DNA from: Flavobacteriales bacterium
Lineage (GTDB): Bacteria; Bacteroidota; Bacteroidia; Flavobacteriales; CAJXXR01
Length of the DNA stretch: 64,000 nt
Assembly (NCBI GenBank): GCA_025210805.1
Contig: JAOAQX010000003.1
Span: 124,001-188,000 of the forward strand
Reading direction: 5' to 3'
In this document: piece after piece, positions 48,997 to 57,839 of the stretch
How positions within the stretch are numbered: the first letter of the stretch is position 1
Layout: each line of letters starts with the position of its first letter
Position numbers and translations under genes: made by a program
Notes under the pieces: model-generated
Database searches by the model: none
Told to the model about the DNA's origin: nothing
Seen by the model: only the letters and a program-made list of their open reading frames with translations

Positions 48997-49272
48997 ATGG
49001 TAAATATATCCATTTCTACACCTCAAGATATCAAACTTAGAATAGCCGATATCTGTAAGAGTAAAAGAAAAAAAGAAAAGGTGAGCAGAGAAGAGCTGGC
49101 TCAATTTGTAGGAATGTCTAAAACTACTTTACAAAATATTGAATTGGGCAAAAATTATACTTTCGATAATCTTTTAAAAGTGGCTTATTATTTTGGATTA
49201 TTAGATCAAATTATGGAAACTTTGACTGCTTATCAAGAACAAGATGACTTGAATAATATGTCTCTCTATTAA
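48997..49272 (+). CDS. hipB: HipB-like antitoxin (XRE-family HTH)
   Basis: A 91-residue DNA-binding protein. The helix-turn-helix is VSREELAQFVGMSKTTLQNIELGKNYTFDNLLKVAYYFGL (about residues 28-67, described by its end motifs VSREELAQ and YYFGL). It is followed 9 nt later by a HipA-family kinase, the usual antitoxin-toxin order. It would bind its own promoter and neutralise HipA. Confidence 0.85.
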   Translation: MVNISISTPQDIKLRIADICKSKRKKEKVSREELAQFVGMSKTTLQNIELGKNYTFDNLLKVAYYFGLLDQIMETLTAYQEQDDLNNMSLY

Positions 49273-49281
49273 TACCCTACC

Positions 49282-50541
49282 ATGAAAAAGGAATTTCTTA
49301 TTGATATACGTTTATTTGAAACCGAAATTGCTCGTTTGGGAATAGATCCTGCCCAAAAAACGGTTCATTTCCAATACAACGAAAGCTTTTTAGAGCGTAA
49401 TTTATATAAGAGTATATTCCCATATATTTTCAGGAGAATCAAAAACATACAAAGCTTTAATCAATTCTTTGATAGTTCTTTTCAAGGGCTTCCTCCGATG
49501 ATTGCAGATTCTTTACCCGATGCCTTCGGAAATTCGATTTTTAAAACTTGGTTTGAACATCAAAAAAAACAAGGACAAACGCTTACAAATATAGAACTAC
49601 TCTCTTATGTAGGAAATAGAGGAATGGGTGCTTTGGAGTTTTTCCCGAATAAAACAAAATTACCGTTATCCGAATTTTCCTTACATGATCTAGCAAATAT
49701 TTCCGAACAAATTTTACAACAAAAAAGAGGGATTAAAGAATGGAGATTTAATGAGCAAGCTCTTTTGAATATTTTCAAATTAGGTACCTCAGCAGGTGGA
49801 GCAAGACCCAAAGTACTGATAGCCGAAAACCCATTAAACAAAAGTATCACCGCTGGAGATATTTTCGAAAACAAAAACCTAAATTACTATATTGTTAAGC
49901 TCCATTTGGAAATGGACGAATACAATAAATCGCAAATAGAGTTCACCTATCATCAACTGGTAAAAAAATGTGGAATTCAGATGATGGATTCGAAGCTCAT
50001 TGATGGTAAACACTTTGCTACTTTACGCTTTGATCGACTTCATGGTGAAAAACATCATTGTCTCACAGCATCTGGAATGAGTGGTTGGGATTTTAAATCA
50101 TCCACATACGCTAGTTATGAAAACTTATTTAAACTCTGCTTAGGTATAAAATTACCCTTACAAGATCTTGAAGAGCTTTATAGACGTATGGTGTTTAATG
50201 TGACTTTTGCTAATGAAGATGACCATTTGAAAAATCATAGTTTTATTTATCAAAAAGAGACGGATTCATGGAGATTATCCCCTGCTTACGATATCACTTA
50301 TTCCAAAAATCCATTAGTAAATTACAGAGAAACTCAGAGAGCTTTATCTATTAATAATAAAAGGAATCATATCAAATTTGAGGATCTACAAACAGTAGCG
50401 AAACAGTTTCAAATAAAGAAATACAAACAAATTATTGATGCTGTCCAAAGCCAAATACCGCAATGGAACATATTAGCAAAAAACAATGGAGTCCATCAAT
50501 ATTTAATTAAGTCCATAGAAAAGGATTTTGCGATATTCTAG
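49282..50541 (+). CDS. hipA: HipA-family serine/threonine kinase toxin
   Basis: A 419-residue HipA homologue of usual length. The N-terminal lobe has GLPPMIADSLPDAFGN (65-84 region). The Gly-rich/ATP section is LGTSAGGARPKVLIA (about 167-181), the catalytic loop NEDDHLKN (311-318, Asp314 and Asn318), and the metal-binding Asp337 lies in LSPAYDITY. All key kinase residues are intact, so it is probably active. E. coli HipA phosphorylates glutamyl-tRNA synthetase and causes growth arrest and persistence. The target here is unknown. Confidence 0.9.
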   Translation: MKKEFLIDIRLFETEIARLGIDPAQKTVHFQYNESFLERNLYKSIFPYIFRRIKNIQSFNQFFDSSFQGLPPMIADSLPDAFGNSIFKTWFEHQKKQGQTLTNIELLSYVGNRGMGALEFFPNKTKLPLSEFSLHDLANISEQILQQKRGIKEWRFNEQALLNIFKLGTSAGGARPKVLIAENPLNKSITAGDIFENKNLNYYIVKLHLEMDEYNKSQIEFTYHQLVKKCGIQMMDSKLIDGKHFATLRFDRLHGEKHHCLTASGMSGWDFKSSTYASYENLFKLCLGIKLPLQDLEELYRRMVFNVTFANEDDHLKNHSFIYQKETDSWRLSPAYDITYSKNPLVNYRETQRALSINNKRNHIKFEDLQTVAKQFQIKKYKQIIDAVQSQIPQWNILAKNNGVHQYLIKSIEKDFAIF

Positions 50542-52964: not shown

Positions 52965-53002
52965 AGCAGTGTTGGAAATTAATTTTCAGCACTGCTTTTT
53001 TT
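52965..53002 (+). terminator. Terminator of glutamine synthetase, overlapping the WYL gene 3' end
   Basis: Stem AGCAGTGTTG (52965-52974) / CAGCACTGCT (52987-52996) with one G-U pair, then seven T. The right arm and T-run encode the last residues (KKSSAEN) of the converging WYL gene, whose stop is at 52979. Confidence 0.85.
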
Positions 53003-54004
53003 GTGGTAATTATTTAGTGCTTGCTTTAATTTCCGTTTAATTCTCCTTCTTAGCCCATTAGGCTTTAGGACTTCAATAGAATCTCCAAATCCTAAAATCA
53101 ATCTTTCAAGTTCGTAGTTTTGATGAACTTCTATTTTTATTTCTATGGATTGATCTGCATAGGTTTTTATTAATTCTTGCGATGAATGAAAAGGCTTTGT
53201 GAGTACATAAGGAGCATTTGATCGATCTATTTTTAAAAAAATCGACTCTTTTTGCTTTGGTTTCATCACAGTAACTCCAATGGTGTTTTTGTAGTATTCA
53301 TCAGGATTAATCGTGGTTTTTTTATAGAAATAATCCCATAAAAAATCAATGGAAATAATTCTATCTAAGGCCAGTGTCATAAGAGTTTCTTTACTGGAAC
53401 CCACTAAGAACCAACGATTATTAAATTCCTTTAACCAATAAGGATGAATTGTGAATAAAGACGATTTTCTGGCAGAAAAAGACTGGTAACAAATACTCAA
53501 AACTGTTTTTTTTATAATGCTTTGATAAAGAATATCTAGGTATTTCAAACCTTTTAATCTTTCGTTTTTATCAAGGTGAATTACCGGACCTCTTTGGTTT
53601 TGCTCGGCATAAATCTTGTCTTCAAGTCTATGGATAATACCTCCTAGCTCAGAAAAAAGTGAAAAATCTTTAAATTGTTTTAGCATTTCAACAGTTTCAG
53701 AGAGAATATACATATCGTTTTCCGTTATAGGAATATCCGTTATGGTGTAGTTAGGATCTTCATATTTATAATATTTTTTATCATACACTACAATCGGTGC
53801 ATTATAGCCCAATTTATCACTTCGCATATTTTGGATATCCAATTGAATCGTTCTCTTACTCACATTGACATCACGACTCTCATACTCATAAAGAGCATCT
53901 GAACAGGCTGTGATTAAATCCTTCAAAGTCCATTTTTTATACCTGTTTTGAAGACATTTATCAATGGTTTTATATCGTATTAATGCATTTTTATTTTGAG
54001 CCAT
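52979..54004 (-). CDS. WYL-domain transcriptional regulator divergent from the RNA-repair cassette
   Basis: A 341-residue regulator. Residues 1-75 are a winged helix-turn-helix (DKCLQNRYKKWTLKDLI, VSKRTIQLDIQNM). Residues 165-225 are the WYL domain (HPYWLKEFNNRWFLVGSS at about 187-204, ALDRI at 212-216). A C-terminal WCX-like segment ends FGDSIEVLKPNGLRRRIKR. This is the domain order of BrxR/CapW-type repressors that control phage-defence operons by sensing a nucleic-acid-like ligand in the WYL pocket. It is transcribed away from the tRNA-like array and SPFH-ligase-PNKP genes, which it probably regulates (inference from position). Confidence 0.9.
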   Translation of the reverse strand: MAQNKNALIRYKTIDKCLQNRYKKWTLKDLITACSDALYEYESRDVNVSKRTIQLDIQNMRSDKLGYNAPIVVYDKKYYKYEDPNYTITDIPITENDMYILSETVEMLKQFKDFSLFSELGGIIHRLEDKIYAEQNQRGPVIHLDKNERLKGLKYLDILYQSIIKKTVLSICYQSFSARKSSLFTIHPYWLKEFNNRWFLVGSSKETLMTLALDRIISIDFLWDYFYKKTTINPDEYYKNTIGVTVMKPKQKESIFLKIDRSNAPYVLTKPFHSSQELIKTYADQSIEIKIEVHQNYELERLILGFGDSIEVLKPNGLRRRIKRKLKQALNNYHKKSSAEN

Positions 54005-54230
54005 TAGTGATGTTTTTTGATAAAATTAGAAATAAAAAACTACTACGCAAAATAAATACGCACTTACTATTCATCTTTGCTTTGTCATTTAGAAATAAAT
54101 GCTCAAAACGATCTTTAAATTTATTTACAATATTGAGAGAGCCTTGTTTTGTGTTTCTGTATAGCACTATTGTTCAATAATCTGCCCTTTAGGTATCGAT
54201 TTATAGTATTCAGCTCGGCTCAAAGGTTTG
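54005..54230. promoter_or_regulatory. Divergent control region between the WYL gene and the tRNA-like array
   Basis: 226 AT-rich nt with no plausible gene. It should hold promoters for the leftward WYL gene and the rightward RNA/repair cassette. A near -7 box CATCTTTG lies at 54071-54078 (first base deviates). The 11-mer TTAGAAATAAA occurs at 54026-54036 and 54089-54099, exactly 63 nt (six helical turns) apart, and could be paired regulator sites. The evidence is weak, because such AT-rich words arise by chance. Confidence 0.35.
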
Positions 54231-54248
54231 TGAGTTACCAAAAACTCA
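54231..54248 (+). ncRNA. Hairpin leading the tRNA-like array
   Basis: Perfect 6-bp stem TGAGTT / AACTCA with loop ACCAAA, ending one base before module A begins. It resembles a reduced anticodon stem-loop (TTACCAA would be a Gly loop with A at position 34), but the closing pairs differ from a true 7-nt loop, so the identity is tentative. An upstream stretch, GCTC ... GAGT at 54218-54235, could alternatively form a D-arm-like hairpin. Confidence 0.45.
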
Positions 54249-54318
54249 TATCACGCTATGGCCGCAGGTTCGAATCCTGCCGAGAGTTTCTCGTAGTTCA
54301 GAGGTTAGAACAATAGCC
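54249..54318 (+). ncRNA. Permuted tRNA-like module A (opened in the anticodon loop, Asp-like)
   Basis: Order along the DNA: loop bases TATCAC, anticodon-stem 3' strand GCTAT (54255-54259), 4-nt variable loop, T-arm GCAGG-TTCGAAT-CCTGC (54264-54280), acceptor 3' strand CGAGA, cap GTT, acceptor 5' strand TCTCG (54289-54293), linker TA (positions 8-9), D-arm GTTC-AGAGGTTA-GAAC (54296-54311), A26, anticodon-stem 5' strand ATAGC (54313-54317), C32. All stems pair perfectly (5+5+4+5 bp). Rejoining the halves gives the loop CTATCAC, which differs from the usual tRNA-Asp loop only by A for G at position 34. The natural 5' and 3' ends are fused by a triloop and there is no CCA. Confidence 0.8.
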
Positions 54319-54398
54319 ACCCTATGTAGGTTCGAATCCTACTACTCTTCACTTGAGTATGGCGGAACTGGAAGACGCGCTAGATTTAAGTTCTAGTA
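54319..54398 (+). ncRNA. Permuted tRNA-like module B (opened in the variable arm, Leu-UAA type)
   Basis: Order: variable-arm 3' strand ACCCTA, T-arm GTAGG-TTCGAAT-CCTAC (54326-54342), acceptor 3' strand TACTC, 7-nt cap TTCACTT, acceptor 5' strand GAGTA (54355-54359), TG linker, class II D-arm GCG ... CGC with GG in its loop (54362-54378), and a complete anticodon arm CTAGA-TTTAAGT-TCTAG (54380-54396) with anticodon TAA. The 3-bp D-stem, TG linker and long variable arm are leucine-tRNA features. The variable arm can close as TAG-GGT / ACC-CTA with one bulged A if it borrows 54399-54403 from module C. The acceptor has only 5 bp and no CCA. Confidence 0.8.
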
Positions 54399-54473
54399 GA
54401 GGTAGAGCAATCGACTGATAATCGATGTGTTGTGGGTTCGATTCCCACTTTGACTGAAGAGTCAAATAGCTCA
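54399..54473 (+). ncRNA. Permuted tRNA-like module C (opened in the D-loop, Ile-GAU type)
   Basis: Order: D-loop remainder GAGGTA, D-stem 3' strand GAGC (54405-54408), A26, anticodon arm ATCGA-CTGATAA-TCGAT (54410-54426) with anticodon GAT, 5-nt variable loop, T-arm GTGGG-TTCGATT-CCCAC (54432-54448), acceptor 3' strand TTTGACT, tetraloop GAAG, acceptor 5' strand AGTCAAA (54460-54466), TA linker, D-stem 5' strand GCTC (54469-54472), A14. All 26 pairs (7+4+5+5+5 counting the joined D-loop as canonical AGAGGTA) are Watson-Crick except none required wobble. The full 7-bp acceptor makes this the clearest case. Confidence 0.85.
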
Positions 54474-54477
54474 ATTT

Positions 54478-54496
54478 TTCAGACTAAAAATCTGAA
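54478..54496 (+). ncRNA. Isolated anticodon stem-loop-like hairpin (Phe-like) ending the array
   Basis: Six-bp stem TTCAGA / TCTGAA with 7-nt loop CTAAAAA. It resembles a tRNA-Phe anticodon arm (usual loop CTGAAAA) with A for G at position 34. No T-arm, D-arm or acceptor follows, so only this arm is present. Confidence 0.55.
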
Positions 54497-54782
54497 GTTA
54501 ACTTACAGAAAATGGGTGAATGATTTCGGTGTTAAAAGTCAACAACTGTTGAAAAATGACACAACTTGTAACAGACTTGCAATTGCTATCAATAGGATTC
54601 ATTAAAGTGTTTCTCTTCTATTGAGAATATTGGATTCATTAAGAATACCAATAAAGAAAAATAGAACACAAGCATATTTAAGAATCAAATTCATAGAAAT
54701 TCCGTTTGTTTCACGAGTGAAATCACTCACTCATTTCTTTATGAAGTATCAAACAAAAATTAATCTATAAAAACAAAAAAAA
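54497..54782 (+). other. Structured leader between the tRNA-like array and the SPFH gene
   Basis: 286 nt without a gene. It holds several small hairpins: TCAAC-AACT-GTTGA (54539-54552), TATTGG / CCAATA (54628-54653) and GAGTG-AAAT-CACTC (54715-54728). The direct repeat GGATTCATTAA occurs at 54595-54605 and 54632-54642. No terminator and no -7 box were found, so the array is probably the 5' leader of the SPFH-ligase-PNKP messenger. Confidence 0.4.
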
Positions 54783-55886
54783 ATGGAACTAAGAGTAAAA
54801 ATAAATGCCTACGAAGTAGGAATCGTAATGAAAGATGGGAATATTATTGATATTCTTACAGAAGGTAAATACTTCAAGAAACTTGGTACCGAGGTGTATA
54901 TTTATAATACAACACAGCTCTTTACAAGTAGAATTGAGTGGTCAATTTTGGAAAAAAATGAAAAACTCATGAAAATGTTGGAAATTGTGGATACCACTGA
55001 GAGTGAATTGGCAATAGTATATAAAGACAACAGGTTTTATACTGTTGTAAATAACTCTAGACTTGCGTACTGGAAAGGAGTTTTGAATATGAAATATAAA
55101 AAATATGACATTGAAGAACTTTCTGTTCCTAAAGAAATCAATAAAGCGATACTGAAATACCCACTAATGACTCAGTATTATAGACTTCTAGAAGTATCTT
55201 CACAAGAACAAGCAATCCTGTATGTGAATGGTGAAAAACGCAGTATTATCAAGGGGGGACAATACTATTTCTGGAACAACACAAAGAAATTGAGACTAGA
55301 AAAAGTGGATATGAGAAATCAGGACATGGAAATTATCGGTCAGGAAATTCTCACCAAAGATAAAGCAGCAATTAGGATAAATTTTCAAGCCAATTATAAA
55401 ATAATTGATGTAGAAAAAGCCCTGATGGAAAACAAAGATTTCAGCAAACAACTGTATTCTTCGCTTCAAATGGCGATAAGATCTTATATCGGTACACTAA
55501 CGCTGGATGAATTGATGGAAAACAAAGAGCAAATTTCTGGTTTTATTATAGAAAAAATCAAAAGTAAAATCACAAAACTGGGTGTCGCAGTAAACTCTGC
55601 AGGAATTAAAGATATTATTCTTCCTGGTGAGATAAAGGAAATTATGAACAAAGTATTGGTAGCACAAAAGAGTGCTCAAGCAAATACGATCACCAGAAGA
55701 GAGGAAACGGCTTCAACAAGAAGTTTGTTGAATACTGCAAAATTGATGGATGACAATGAAATGCTCTTCAGATTGAAAGAGATGGAATATGTAGAAAAAA
55801 TTGCAGAAAAAATCGGAGAAATTTCCTTGAATGGAAATGGAGGTATGGTGAAGCAATTGAAAGAAATCTTTGGAGCTAAATCTTGA
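54783..55886 (+). CDS. SPFH/slipin-family protein of an RNA-repair cassette
   Basis: A 367-residue protein. Residues 1-160 are a mixed alpha/beta region starting MELRVKINAYEVGIVMKDGN. Residues 165-290 match the band-7/SPFH fold (EQAILYVNGEKRSIIKGGQYYFW, EILTKDKAAIRINFQANYKI, IKSKITKLGVAVNSAGIKDI). A helical coiled coil rich in Glu and Ala follows (VLVAQKSAQANTITRREE). No N-terminal membrane helix is visible. Slipins are known companions of bacterial RNA-repair operons (for example with RtcB), as I recall. A scaffold role is inferred. It is the first coding gene after the tRNA-like array. Confidence 0.85.
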   Translation: MELRVKINAYEVGIVMKDGNIIDILTEGKYFKKLGTEVYIYNTTQLFTSRIEWSILEKNEKLMKMLEIVDTTESELAIVYKDNRFYTVVNNSRLAYWKGVLNMKYKKYDIEELSVPKEINKAILKYPLMTQYYRLLEVSSQEQAILYVNGEKRSIIKGGQYYFWNNTKKLRLEKVDMRNQDMEIIGQEILTKDKAAIRINFQANYKIIDVEKALMENKDFSKQLYSSLQMAIRSYIGTLTLDELMENKEQISGFIIEKIKSKITKLGVAVNSAGIKDIILPGEIKEIMNKVLVAQKSAQANTITRREETASTRSLLNTAKLMDDNEMLFRLKEMEYVEKIAEKIGEISLNGNGGMVKQLKEIFGAKS

Positions 55887-55892
55887 ACTAAG

Positions 55893-55919
55893 GCACGATT
55901 TGAATAATCAATCGTGCCG
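55893..55919 (+). other. Intercistronic hairpin between SPFH and RNA ligase genes
   Basis: Perfect 9-bp stem GGCACGATT (55893-55901) / AATCGTGCC (55911-55919) with a 9-nt loop and no U-tract. It lies in the 52-nt spacer before the ligase ATG and could tune stability, processing or translation of the two halves of the messenger. Confidence 0.6.
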
Positions 55920-55938
55920 TTCTATAAAAACAGAAAAA

Positions 55939-56961
55939 ATGAAATCTACAATAAACATTCAGAAAATTAGAGAATACATATCAAAAGGCTGGATTACAGA
56001 AAAAAAACACCCTATTCATGATATTTTTATTTACAATTACAGCCAAAAAACACAATTTGAATATTTTTGGGACACAACCACAATACAGTGTAGAGGATTG
56101 ATTTTAAACAAAGAGGGCTTTATACATGCAAGACCTTTTCAGAAATTCTTTAACCTATCTGAGCATCAAGGTGAAATCCCAAATGAAGCCTTTGAAGTTT
56201 TTGAAAAAATGGATGGTTCATTGGGGATATTATATTGGCTAGAAAATGAACCTTATATTGCAACAAGAGGCTCTTTTGAGTCTTGTCAAGCAAAGTTTGC
56301 AAATCAACTTTTAAGAACAAAATATCGACATATCTGGCAAAATTTGAATCCTAAATACACATACCTATTTGAGATTATCTATCCAGAAAATAGAATTGTG
56401 GTAGATTATGGAGCAGATGAAAAACTGGTTTTACTAGCCATTATTGACACACAAACAGGACAAGATATACCATTAAAAAACATCGGATTTCCTTTGGTAA
56501 AGAAATACTCAAACATCAAAAACATTACAGGTTTATCTAAGGAAAACAAAAAGAATGCTGAAGGCTATGTATTGCGATTTGAAAGTGGATTGAGATTAAA
56601 AATCAAATTTGACGAATATATTCACTTACATAAAATATACAATAACATTTCCTCTTTAGTCATTTGGAATCAGATGAAAAACGAAAGTTTAAACGAAAAA
56701 TTTTTAGCGGAAATTCCCGATGAAATTTATCCATGGATAAAAGAAATACAACATAAACTTGAGAAACAATATTCTGAAATAGAAAATCTTGCAAAACAAG
56801 AATACAAAGAATATCATACAAGAAAAGAAACTGCTGAATATTTCAAAACTTGTAAGCATCCAAGTATTTTGTTTTCCATGTTGAATGGAAAAAGTTATTC
56901 GGAATATATATGGAAATTAATTAGACCAAATTTTGAAAAACCCAAAATAACAAGAAAATGA
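55939..56961 (+). CDS. T4 Rnl1-like RNA ligase
   Basis: A 340-residue ATP-dependent RNA ligase. CRGLILNKEGFIHARPFQKFFN (about 51-72) precedes the adenylated Lys90 in FEKMDGSLGILYW (motif I KxDG). GSFES (motif III-like region), YLFEIIYPENRIVVDY, and EGYVLRFESGLRLKIKFDEY (motifs IV-V) complete the nucleotidyltransferase. A C-terminal helical domain follows. It seals 5'-phosphate to 3'-OH ends, the second half of T4-style tRNA repair. Start ATG 55939 (MKSTINIQKI) is chosen; the frame is open into the SPFH gene but that extension is not family-like. Its stop overlaps the PNKP start (ATGA). Confidence 0.93.
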   Translation: MKSTINIQKIREYISKGWITEKKHPIHDIFIYNYSQKTQFEYFWDTTTIQCRGLILNKEGFIHARPFQKFFNLSEHQGEIPNEAFEVFEKMDGSLGILYWLENEPYIATRGSFESCQAKFANQLLRTKYRHIWQNLNPKYTYLFEIIYPENRIVVDYGADEKLVLLAIIDTQTGQDIPLKNIGFPLVKKYSNIKNITGLSKENKKNAEGYVLRFESGLRLKIKFDEYIHLHKIYNNISSLVIWNQMKNESLNEKFLAEIPDEIYPWIKEIQHKLEKQYSEIENLAKQEYKEYHTRKETAEYFKTCKHPSILFSMLNGKSYSEYIWKLIRPNFEKPKITRK

Positions 56962-57839
56962 AAAAGATCATTTTACTTAAAGGTTTACCCGCAAGTGGAA
57001 AATCAACTTATGCAAAAGCCTTGGTAAAAAACAACCCAGGAATGTATAAAAGAATCAATAGAGATGAACTAAGAGACATGCTAGATTCTGGAAAATTTTC
57101 TAAGGGAAATGAGCAATTTGTTAAAAAAACCAGAGACTTTTTAATCAAAATGGCACTACAAGACGGAAAACACGTGATTGTAGATGATACCAATTTGCAT
57201 AGCTCAAATGAAGAGAAAATGAGAGCAATTGCAAAAGAATTTAAAGAAGAAACTGGACACCAAGTTCGGGTAGAAATAAAAACATTTGACACTTCTGTAG
57301 AAGTTTGTATAAAACGAGATCTATTGCGTGAAAATCCCGTTGGACAAGCAGTTATTAGAAAAATGGAACGACAAATGAATTCTAAGGAAAAAAAGTATCC
57401 TAAATACAGCGTTCAAAACCCTGAACTGCCCAAGGCAATTATATGCGATTTAGATGGAACTCTAGCCTTAATGCACGATAGAGGTCCATTTGAGGGGAAT
57501 AAATGCTTATCAGATTTACCAAACACTCCAATAGTGAATTTGGTGAAAAATTATCATAAAATGGGCTTCAAAATACTCTTGCTTTCGGGGAGAGATGGAC
57601 AATTTGAAAATGAAACCAAAAAATGGCTGGAGCAATATAAAATCCCTTATGATCAACTATGGATGCGTGCTAAAAAAGACATGAGAAAAGATGCCATTAT
57701 CAAAAAAGAATTATTCAAACAAAACATTCAGGATCAATATTTTGTGGAATTTATTCTCGATGACAGAAATCAAGTAGTGGATTTATGGAGAAATGAATTA
57801 AATTTACCTTGTCTTCAAGTGTATTATGGGGATTTTTAA
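56958..57839 (+). CDS. pnkp: T4 Pnkp-like polynucleotide kinase-phosphatase
   Basis: A 293-residue end-healing enzyme with the same domain order and length as phage T4 Pnkp. Residues 1-150 are the 5'-kinase: P-loop GLPASGKST (9-17), INRDEL, DDTNLH (76-81) and RDLLRENPVGQAVI. Residues 158-293 are the HAD-type 3'-phosphatase: DLDGTLA (nucleophile Asp164, acid Asp166), LLSGRDGQ, Lys in RKDAIIK, and LDDRNQVVDLWR. It removes 2',3'-cyclic phosphate or 3'-phosphate and phosphorylates 5'-OH, preparing ends for the adjoining ligase. It is translationally coupled to the ligase by a 4-nt overlap. Confidence 0.95.
   Translation: MKKIILLKGLPASGKSTYAKALVKNNPGMYKRINRDELRDMLDSGKFSKGNEQFVKKTRDFLIKMALQDGKHVIVDDTNLHSSNEEKMRAIAKEFKEETGHQVRVEIKTFDTSVEVCIKRDLLRENPVGQAVIRKMERQMNSKEKKYPKYSVQNPELPKAIICDLDGTLALMHDRGPFEGNKCLSDLPNTPIVNLVKNYHKMGFKILLLSGRDGQFENETKKWLEQYKIPYDQLWMRAKKDMRKDAIIKKELFKQNIQDQYFVEFILDDRNQVVDLWRNELNLPCLQVYYGDF

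Follow-up and report, generated by a model that had tools for sequence, protein, structure and literature searches.

The 64,000-nucleotide stretch of Flavobacteriales DNA analysed here (the window) contains, between a WYL regulator gene and an SPFH/Band-7 gene, an intergenic RNA of about 650 nt (54100–54742, with inferred ends) that carries three permuted tRNA modules. Judged from the sequence, it is a real and conserved part of a tRNA-damage response and not debris, because in relatives a similar RNA adjoins the gene of the same scaffold protein. It most probably serves the SPFH protein as partner RNA, being a tRNA mimic that would scaffold or bait the machinery of tRNA damage and repair. The features of the locus are as follows.

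52979–54004, minus strand: gene of a WYL-WCX transcription regulator, transcribed away from the RNA (Pfam WYL 1e-10, WCX 2e-12)
54044–54062, plus strand: operator-like element TACGCAAAATAAATACGCA, of the form TRCGCA-N6/7-TRCGYA
54072–54080, plus strand: candidate Bacteroidota −7 element CATCTTTGC (AATCTTTGT in relatives), proposed from its position and conservation 3′ of the operator
54133–54248, plus strand: 5′ domain, with hairpin GTGTTTCTGTATAGCAC (54151–54167), a second stem and a CCAAAA hairpin (54231–54248); an alignment of 49 relatives shows that it is conserved, with covariation in part of it
54255–54318, plus strand: module A, with lower stem GCTAT/ATAGC, T arm (54264–54280), capped acceptor CGAGA-GTT-TCTCG (54281–54293) and D arm (54296–54311)
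54326–54396, plus strand: module B, with T arm, capped acceptor TACTC-TTCACTT-GAGTA, Leu-type D arm and anticodon arm CTAGA-TTTAAGT-TCTAG
54399–54473, plus strand: module C, with the 3′ part of the D-loop and GAGC, GAU anticodon arm, T arm, capped 7-bp acceptor and GCTC; permuted in the D-loop
54478–54496, plus strand: second hairpin resembling an anticodon arm, TTCAGACTAAAAATCTGAA (counterpart TTCTGTTGAAAACAGAA at the same position in the relative L102)
54715–54732, plus strand: terminator-like hairpin upstream of the SPFH start, from a pattern scan
54783–55886, plus strand: SPFH/Band-7 gene (Pfam Band_7 6e-25)
55870–56961, plus strand: T4 Rnl1-type RNA ligase gene (Pfam RNA_lig_T4_1 1e-16)
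56958–57839, plus strand: PNKP gene, a polynucleotide kinase with HAD 3′-phosphatase (Pfam HAD_PNKP 3e-51, AAA_33 4e-19)

The gap between the WYL and SPFH genes is 778 nt, and the SPFH, ligase and PNKP genes stand in a row on the plus strand.

Anatomy of the permuted modules

The modules have the tRNA halves in reversed order, with acceptor strands that pair. The 3′ acceptor strand of each unit pairs with the next 5′ strand and not with its own: TCTCG and TACTC, which bound the unit running from A to B, cannot pair with each other, whereas they pair with their neighbours. The point of permutation in module B is the variable loop. Apart from generic tRNA, no Rfam family matches the RNA at its own cut-off.

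The tRNA calls made by ARAGORN and Rfam within the RNA, together with the canonical appearance of the arms, would fit permuted or chimeric tRNA genes that are matured into functional tRNAs. This is very improbable, as the called units straddle modules, the acceptor strands pair with a neighbour, and the D-stem partner in module C sits across the permutation. Moreover, the caps are only GTT, TTCACTT and GAAG (3–7 nt), with no splice motif, no CCA-bearing intervening segment and no processing sites for a mature tRNA. One such false call, a tRNA-Ser(AGA) at 54360–54457, straddles modules B and C, and false calls of this kind probably hide arrays in public annotation.

Module C was the subject of the original prediction, which described an Ile-GAU permuted tRNA opened in the D-loop. 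The elements that it listed are all present as read from the sequence: a 5-bp anticodon stem (ATCGA-CTGATAA-TCGAT, 54410–54426, anticodon GAU), a 5-bp T stem (GTGGG-TTCGATT-CCCAC, 54432–54448), a 7-bp acceptor with a GAAG cap (TTTGACT-GAAG-AGTCAAA, 54449–54466), and a 4-bp D-stem whose strands lie at the two ends of the module (GCTC, 54469–54472, with GAGC, 54405–54408). Joining the ends does give the D-loop A|GAGGTA. Module C is thus a permuted mimic with a capped acceptor, as proposed; it is one of three linked modules within a larger RNA tied to SPFH, and not a free-standing gene. A pattern search of the genome assembly found no tRNA-Ile gene with a GAU anticodon.

It had been suggested that the folding energy of module C be compared with shuffled controls. 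The intended fold has an energy of −22.7 kcal/mol, 0.7 above the minimum of −23.4; the minimum-energy fold retains the anticodon, T and acceptor arms and pairs the ends slightly differently from the drawing. Equal energy is reached by about 2% of dinucleotide shuffles and not by none (4 of 200, z −2.5; 18 of 1000), and the energy of module C by itself is therefore modest evidence, only suggestive. For the whole RNA (54100–54742) the folding z is −6.3 with 60 shuffles.

What confirms the permuted architecture is comparison with relatives, which is decisive where energy is not. The nearest relative is L102, from Saprospiraceae, whose SPFH protein is 54% identical. It has the same order as module C: the 3′ strand of the D-stem, an anticodon-like hairpin, T arm, capped acceptor, TAGCTCA and a second hairpin. 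The sequences of the T and acceptor stems have changed between the two, and L102 does not share the GAU anticodon. The 4-bp D-stem is identical in both, and hence has no support from covariation. The D-loop opening is found in module C and this one relative, while modules A and B are opened at other places. For this reason module C is not the best proof of permutation that it was taken to be; that role belongs to module A, which is conserved across Bacteroidota.

Conservation beside SPFH genes

Relatives were sought with the SPFH protein alone, which gave 80 named loci, almost all with a Bacteroidota label; 77 of them had enough upstream sequence. A module was counted when a T arm and a capped acceptor stood in the 1 kb upstream of SPFH and on its strand. 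By this pattern 70 of the 77 loci have at least one module and 43 at least two, the pattern being absent in seven. The same pattern has 27 matches in 2.0 Mb of control sequence. In a set from whole genomes, which partly overlaps the 77, a module is found in 20 of 25 loci. It is the contrast of these two sets with the control that links the RNA to SPFH, and in the window as in its relatives the RNA adjoins the SPFH gene on the same strand. Prevalence over whole genomes could not be taken from a covariance model or from RF02553, since tandem ordinary tRNA genes match these too. A viral scan gave a single weak SPFH relative, with no array within its 180 nt of upstream sequence.

The structure itself was analysed in an alignment of 38 module-1 sequences, including module A of the window, with the permuted-tRNA structure. 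In this alignment 94.1% of pairs are kept, and there are 189 double changes compared to 52 (sd 6) in shuffles, while controls with slid strands reach 39–50% pairing. The T and D arms of this set were partly pre-selected for pairing; the acceptor and lower stem were not. Pairing of the acceptor hairpin was likewise not demanded when modules were chosen, and 83% of 95 distinct acceptor hairpins are perfect over 5 bp; exchanging strands among loci lowers this to 7%. The structure is concluded to be real because pairs are kept, double changes exceed those in shuffles, and swapped acceptor strands fail. In the 49 aligned relatives there is also covariation in a 5′ stem and in the anticodon stem that follows module 2. 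A covariance model (R1) built from the 38 module-1 sequences scores module A, which was in its training set, at 61.2 bits (E 4.7e-18); modules C and B, both outside the training set, score 38.1 bits (E 2e-10) and 21.5 bits (E 9e-5). From these comparisons module A appears as the best conserved part of the RNA.

A set of decaying tandem tRNA pseudogenes with structure arising by chance would agree with the z of only −2.5 for a single module. It is the least probable of the readings considered, given a level of compensatory change above the control and a synteny with SPFH that extends across Bacteroidota. Neighbour pairing and covariation are the grounds for rejecting ordinary or pseudo tRNAs.

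The constant position of the RNA, upstream of SPFH and on its strand in nearly all loci, could alternatively mark a cis-acting leader, whose structure mainly controls SPFH expression by attenuation, T-box-like competition for tRNA, or processing. There is a terminator-like hairpin between the RNA and the SPFH start codon, and the pattern scan gave three terminator-like sites in the region against 0.5 expected. We nevertheless regard a leader as unlikely: an unsystematic look noticed no alternative anti-terminator pairing, the RNA imitates tRNA rather than binding it, and closed acceptors fit a mimic that acts in trans.

The genes around the RNA belong to RNA repair. The neighbourhood holds ligase and end-healing functions, as the Rnl1 ligase and PNKP in the window and as RtcB in relatives, where 38 of 68 full related SPFH loci have it no more than 5 kb away; a WYL homologue is near 19 of the 68. 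The operator-like pattern TRCGCA-N6/7-TRCGYA precedes 39 of 95 related arrays, as well as other RNA-repair genes in relatives. Within the genome itself it has a single match (54044–54062), as has a reversed control pattern. The locus is read as a repair operon because of the ligase and PNKP in the window, RtcB near relatives, and an operator common to repair loci. An SPFH gene is also contained in the rtc locus of P. aeruginosa (PMC13086221). PADLOC recognised no defence system apart from the WYL regulator, and a first search of a collection of genome contigs with the ligase as query gave no matches.

Several further observations were made in these loci. The element TRCGCA-N7-TGCGYA followed by TCTTTG occurs at many repair loci (54044–54062 of the window, L040–L045 and L081–L098), with five copies in L041, and this recurrent operator probably defines a WYL regulon across Flavobacteriales. 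Genes for an RNase_T-type exonuclease and a calcineurin-like phosphoesterase lie beside SPFH in some Flavobacterium-like genomes (L087, L092, L098). The same operator stands upstream of tRNA-like genes that contain a long insertion and in which GGTCAA...AACTTACTTC motifs recur (L042:1460-2000 and L041:11900-12500). These genes are possibly a second family of RNA-repair RNAs; those of L042 precede a gene whose 746-aa product belongs to no clear Pfam family. It is also found with TROVE (Ro60-like) genes that have their own YrlA-like RNAs, with TTACTTCG motifs (L095, L096, L097); in some genomes such loci are beside the SPFH array. Three short tRNA-like genes in ordinary order (L043:2352-2576) are near a similar half-operator and overlap the end of a dehydrogenase gene. 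In the window, 48997–50541 holds a probable HipBA toxin-antitoxin pair, in which the gene of a HipA-like kinase comes after an HTH gene.

Known tRNA-like RNAs and the proposed function

The tRNA-like module of Y RNA is a circular permutation of tRNA in PDB 6CU1 (PMC11472068). The RNA described here resembles YrlA (RF02553) in having T arm, capped acceptor and D arm in that order, and in its context, RNA-repair operons being a frequent home of YrlA. It differs in that it chains several modules and adds anticodon arms, and in that its proposed partner is SPFH and not Ro60: no TROVE/Ro60 match turned up in its own genome, and a Deinobacterium control was positive. With RF02553 the array scores 31.5 bits (module A) and 24.4 bits, which does not reach the cut-off of 69. 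The array would work like a Y RNA module, but it is not a member of the YrlA family. The permuted tRNA genes of algae and archaea similarly have the 3′ half ahead of the 5′ half; here, in contrast, there is no CCA leader and no splice motif, the caps are tiny, and there are multiple modules per RNA.

In 2016 Burroughs and Aravind (NAR) reportedly predicted, for RNA-repair systems, that SPFH/Band-7 scaffolds have a tRNA-like cognate RNA of a novel kind. The present RNA agrees with that partner RNA in position and context, and it is probably a variant of it. The present data document the linking of permuted, capped modules into a chain, the covariation, and module C.

The AlphaFold model of the SPFH protein (pLDDT 83) has two N-terminal β repeats, an SPFH domain and a long helix, and hydropathy predicts no transmembrane segment. 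In the eukaryotic vault, the shoulder of MVP is an SPFH domain, and the particle bears vault RNA and the TROVE protein TEP1. MVP aligns to residues 4–321 of the model, covering β repeats, SPFH domain and helix, with Z 11.9, which is suggestive of kinship over the full model. Kinship of the N-terminal part alone is unsupported: erlin and prohibitin fit the repeats as well or better (Z about 6, compared to 4.5 for MVP), and the protein has no match to Pfam Vault. The likeness, as an idea only, is of a soluble layout of β repeats, SPFH and helix with a small RNA partner.

In 83 of 89 loci there are anticodon-like loops that have U33 and, at position 37, a purine. The anticodons vary among genomes (UUU, CAA, GAA, CAU, GUC and others), and the stems that carry them covary. 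This raises the possibility, which we hold tentatively, of a decoy or bait: exposed anticodon arms would divert anticodon nucleases from real tRNAs, or would act as sensors of damage whose cleavage is signalled to the operon. It has likewise been suggested that the tRNA-like domain of YrlA could inhibit a nuclease (Hughes et al., 2020; PMC7790460). On the other hand, the best conserved module, A, has no anticodon loop, nor has a module of L045, and YrlA stayed uncut in Salmonella (PMC7790460).

We favour a scaffold: 54100–54742 is probably a structured non-coding partner RNA of SPFH, in a WYL-controlled repair operon, that would hold cut tRNAs for rejoining. At its core, circularly permuted tRNA mimics follow one another in a chain, each 3′ acceptor strand pairing with the next 5′ strand across a short loop, so that there would be no free CCA, no charging and no 3′ end accessible to exonucleases; the hairpins of the anticodon arms are exposed along the chain. 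RNA damage may cause the WYL regulator to free the promoter, leading to production of the RNA. The RNA would then dock on a soluble ring or cage of SPFH, analogous to YrlA on Ro60, and its tRNA-shaped modules would position proteins that handle tRNA: the ligase, PNKP, RtcB in relatives, and perhaps the damaging nuclease. Cut tRNAs may in this way be kept in place and rejoined on the assembly of RNA and SPFH.

The locus provides an RNA of defined structure with which to ask what role tRNA-like RNAs have when bacteria repair RNA: it covaries, it has a gene partner across Bacteroidota, and annotation tools mistake it for tRNA. Since the anticodon arms vary among genomes, direct tests can separate a decoy from a scaffold. 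More speculatively, the RNA could represent a widespread and unlisted class of polymeric tRNA mimics that assemble on a soluble SPFH cage and whose anticodon arms are exchangeable and match the local anticodon nucleases. If this is true, it would be a bacterial RNA-repair particle akin to Ro60–Y RNA or to a miniature vault.
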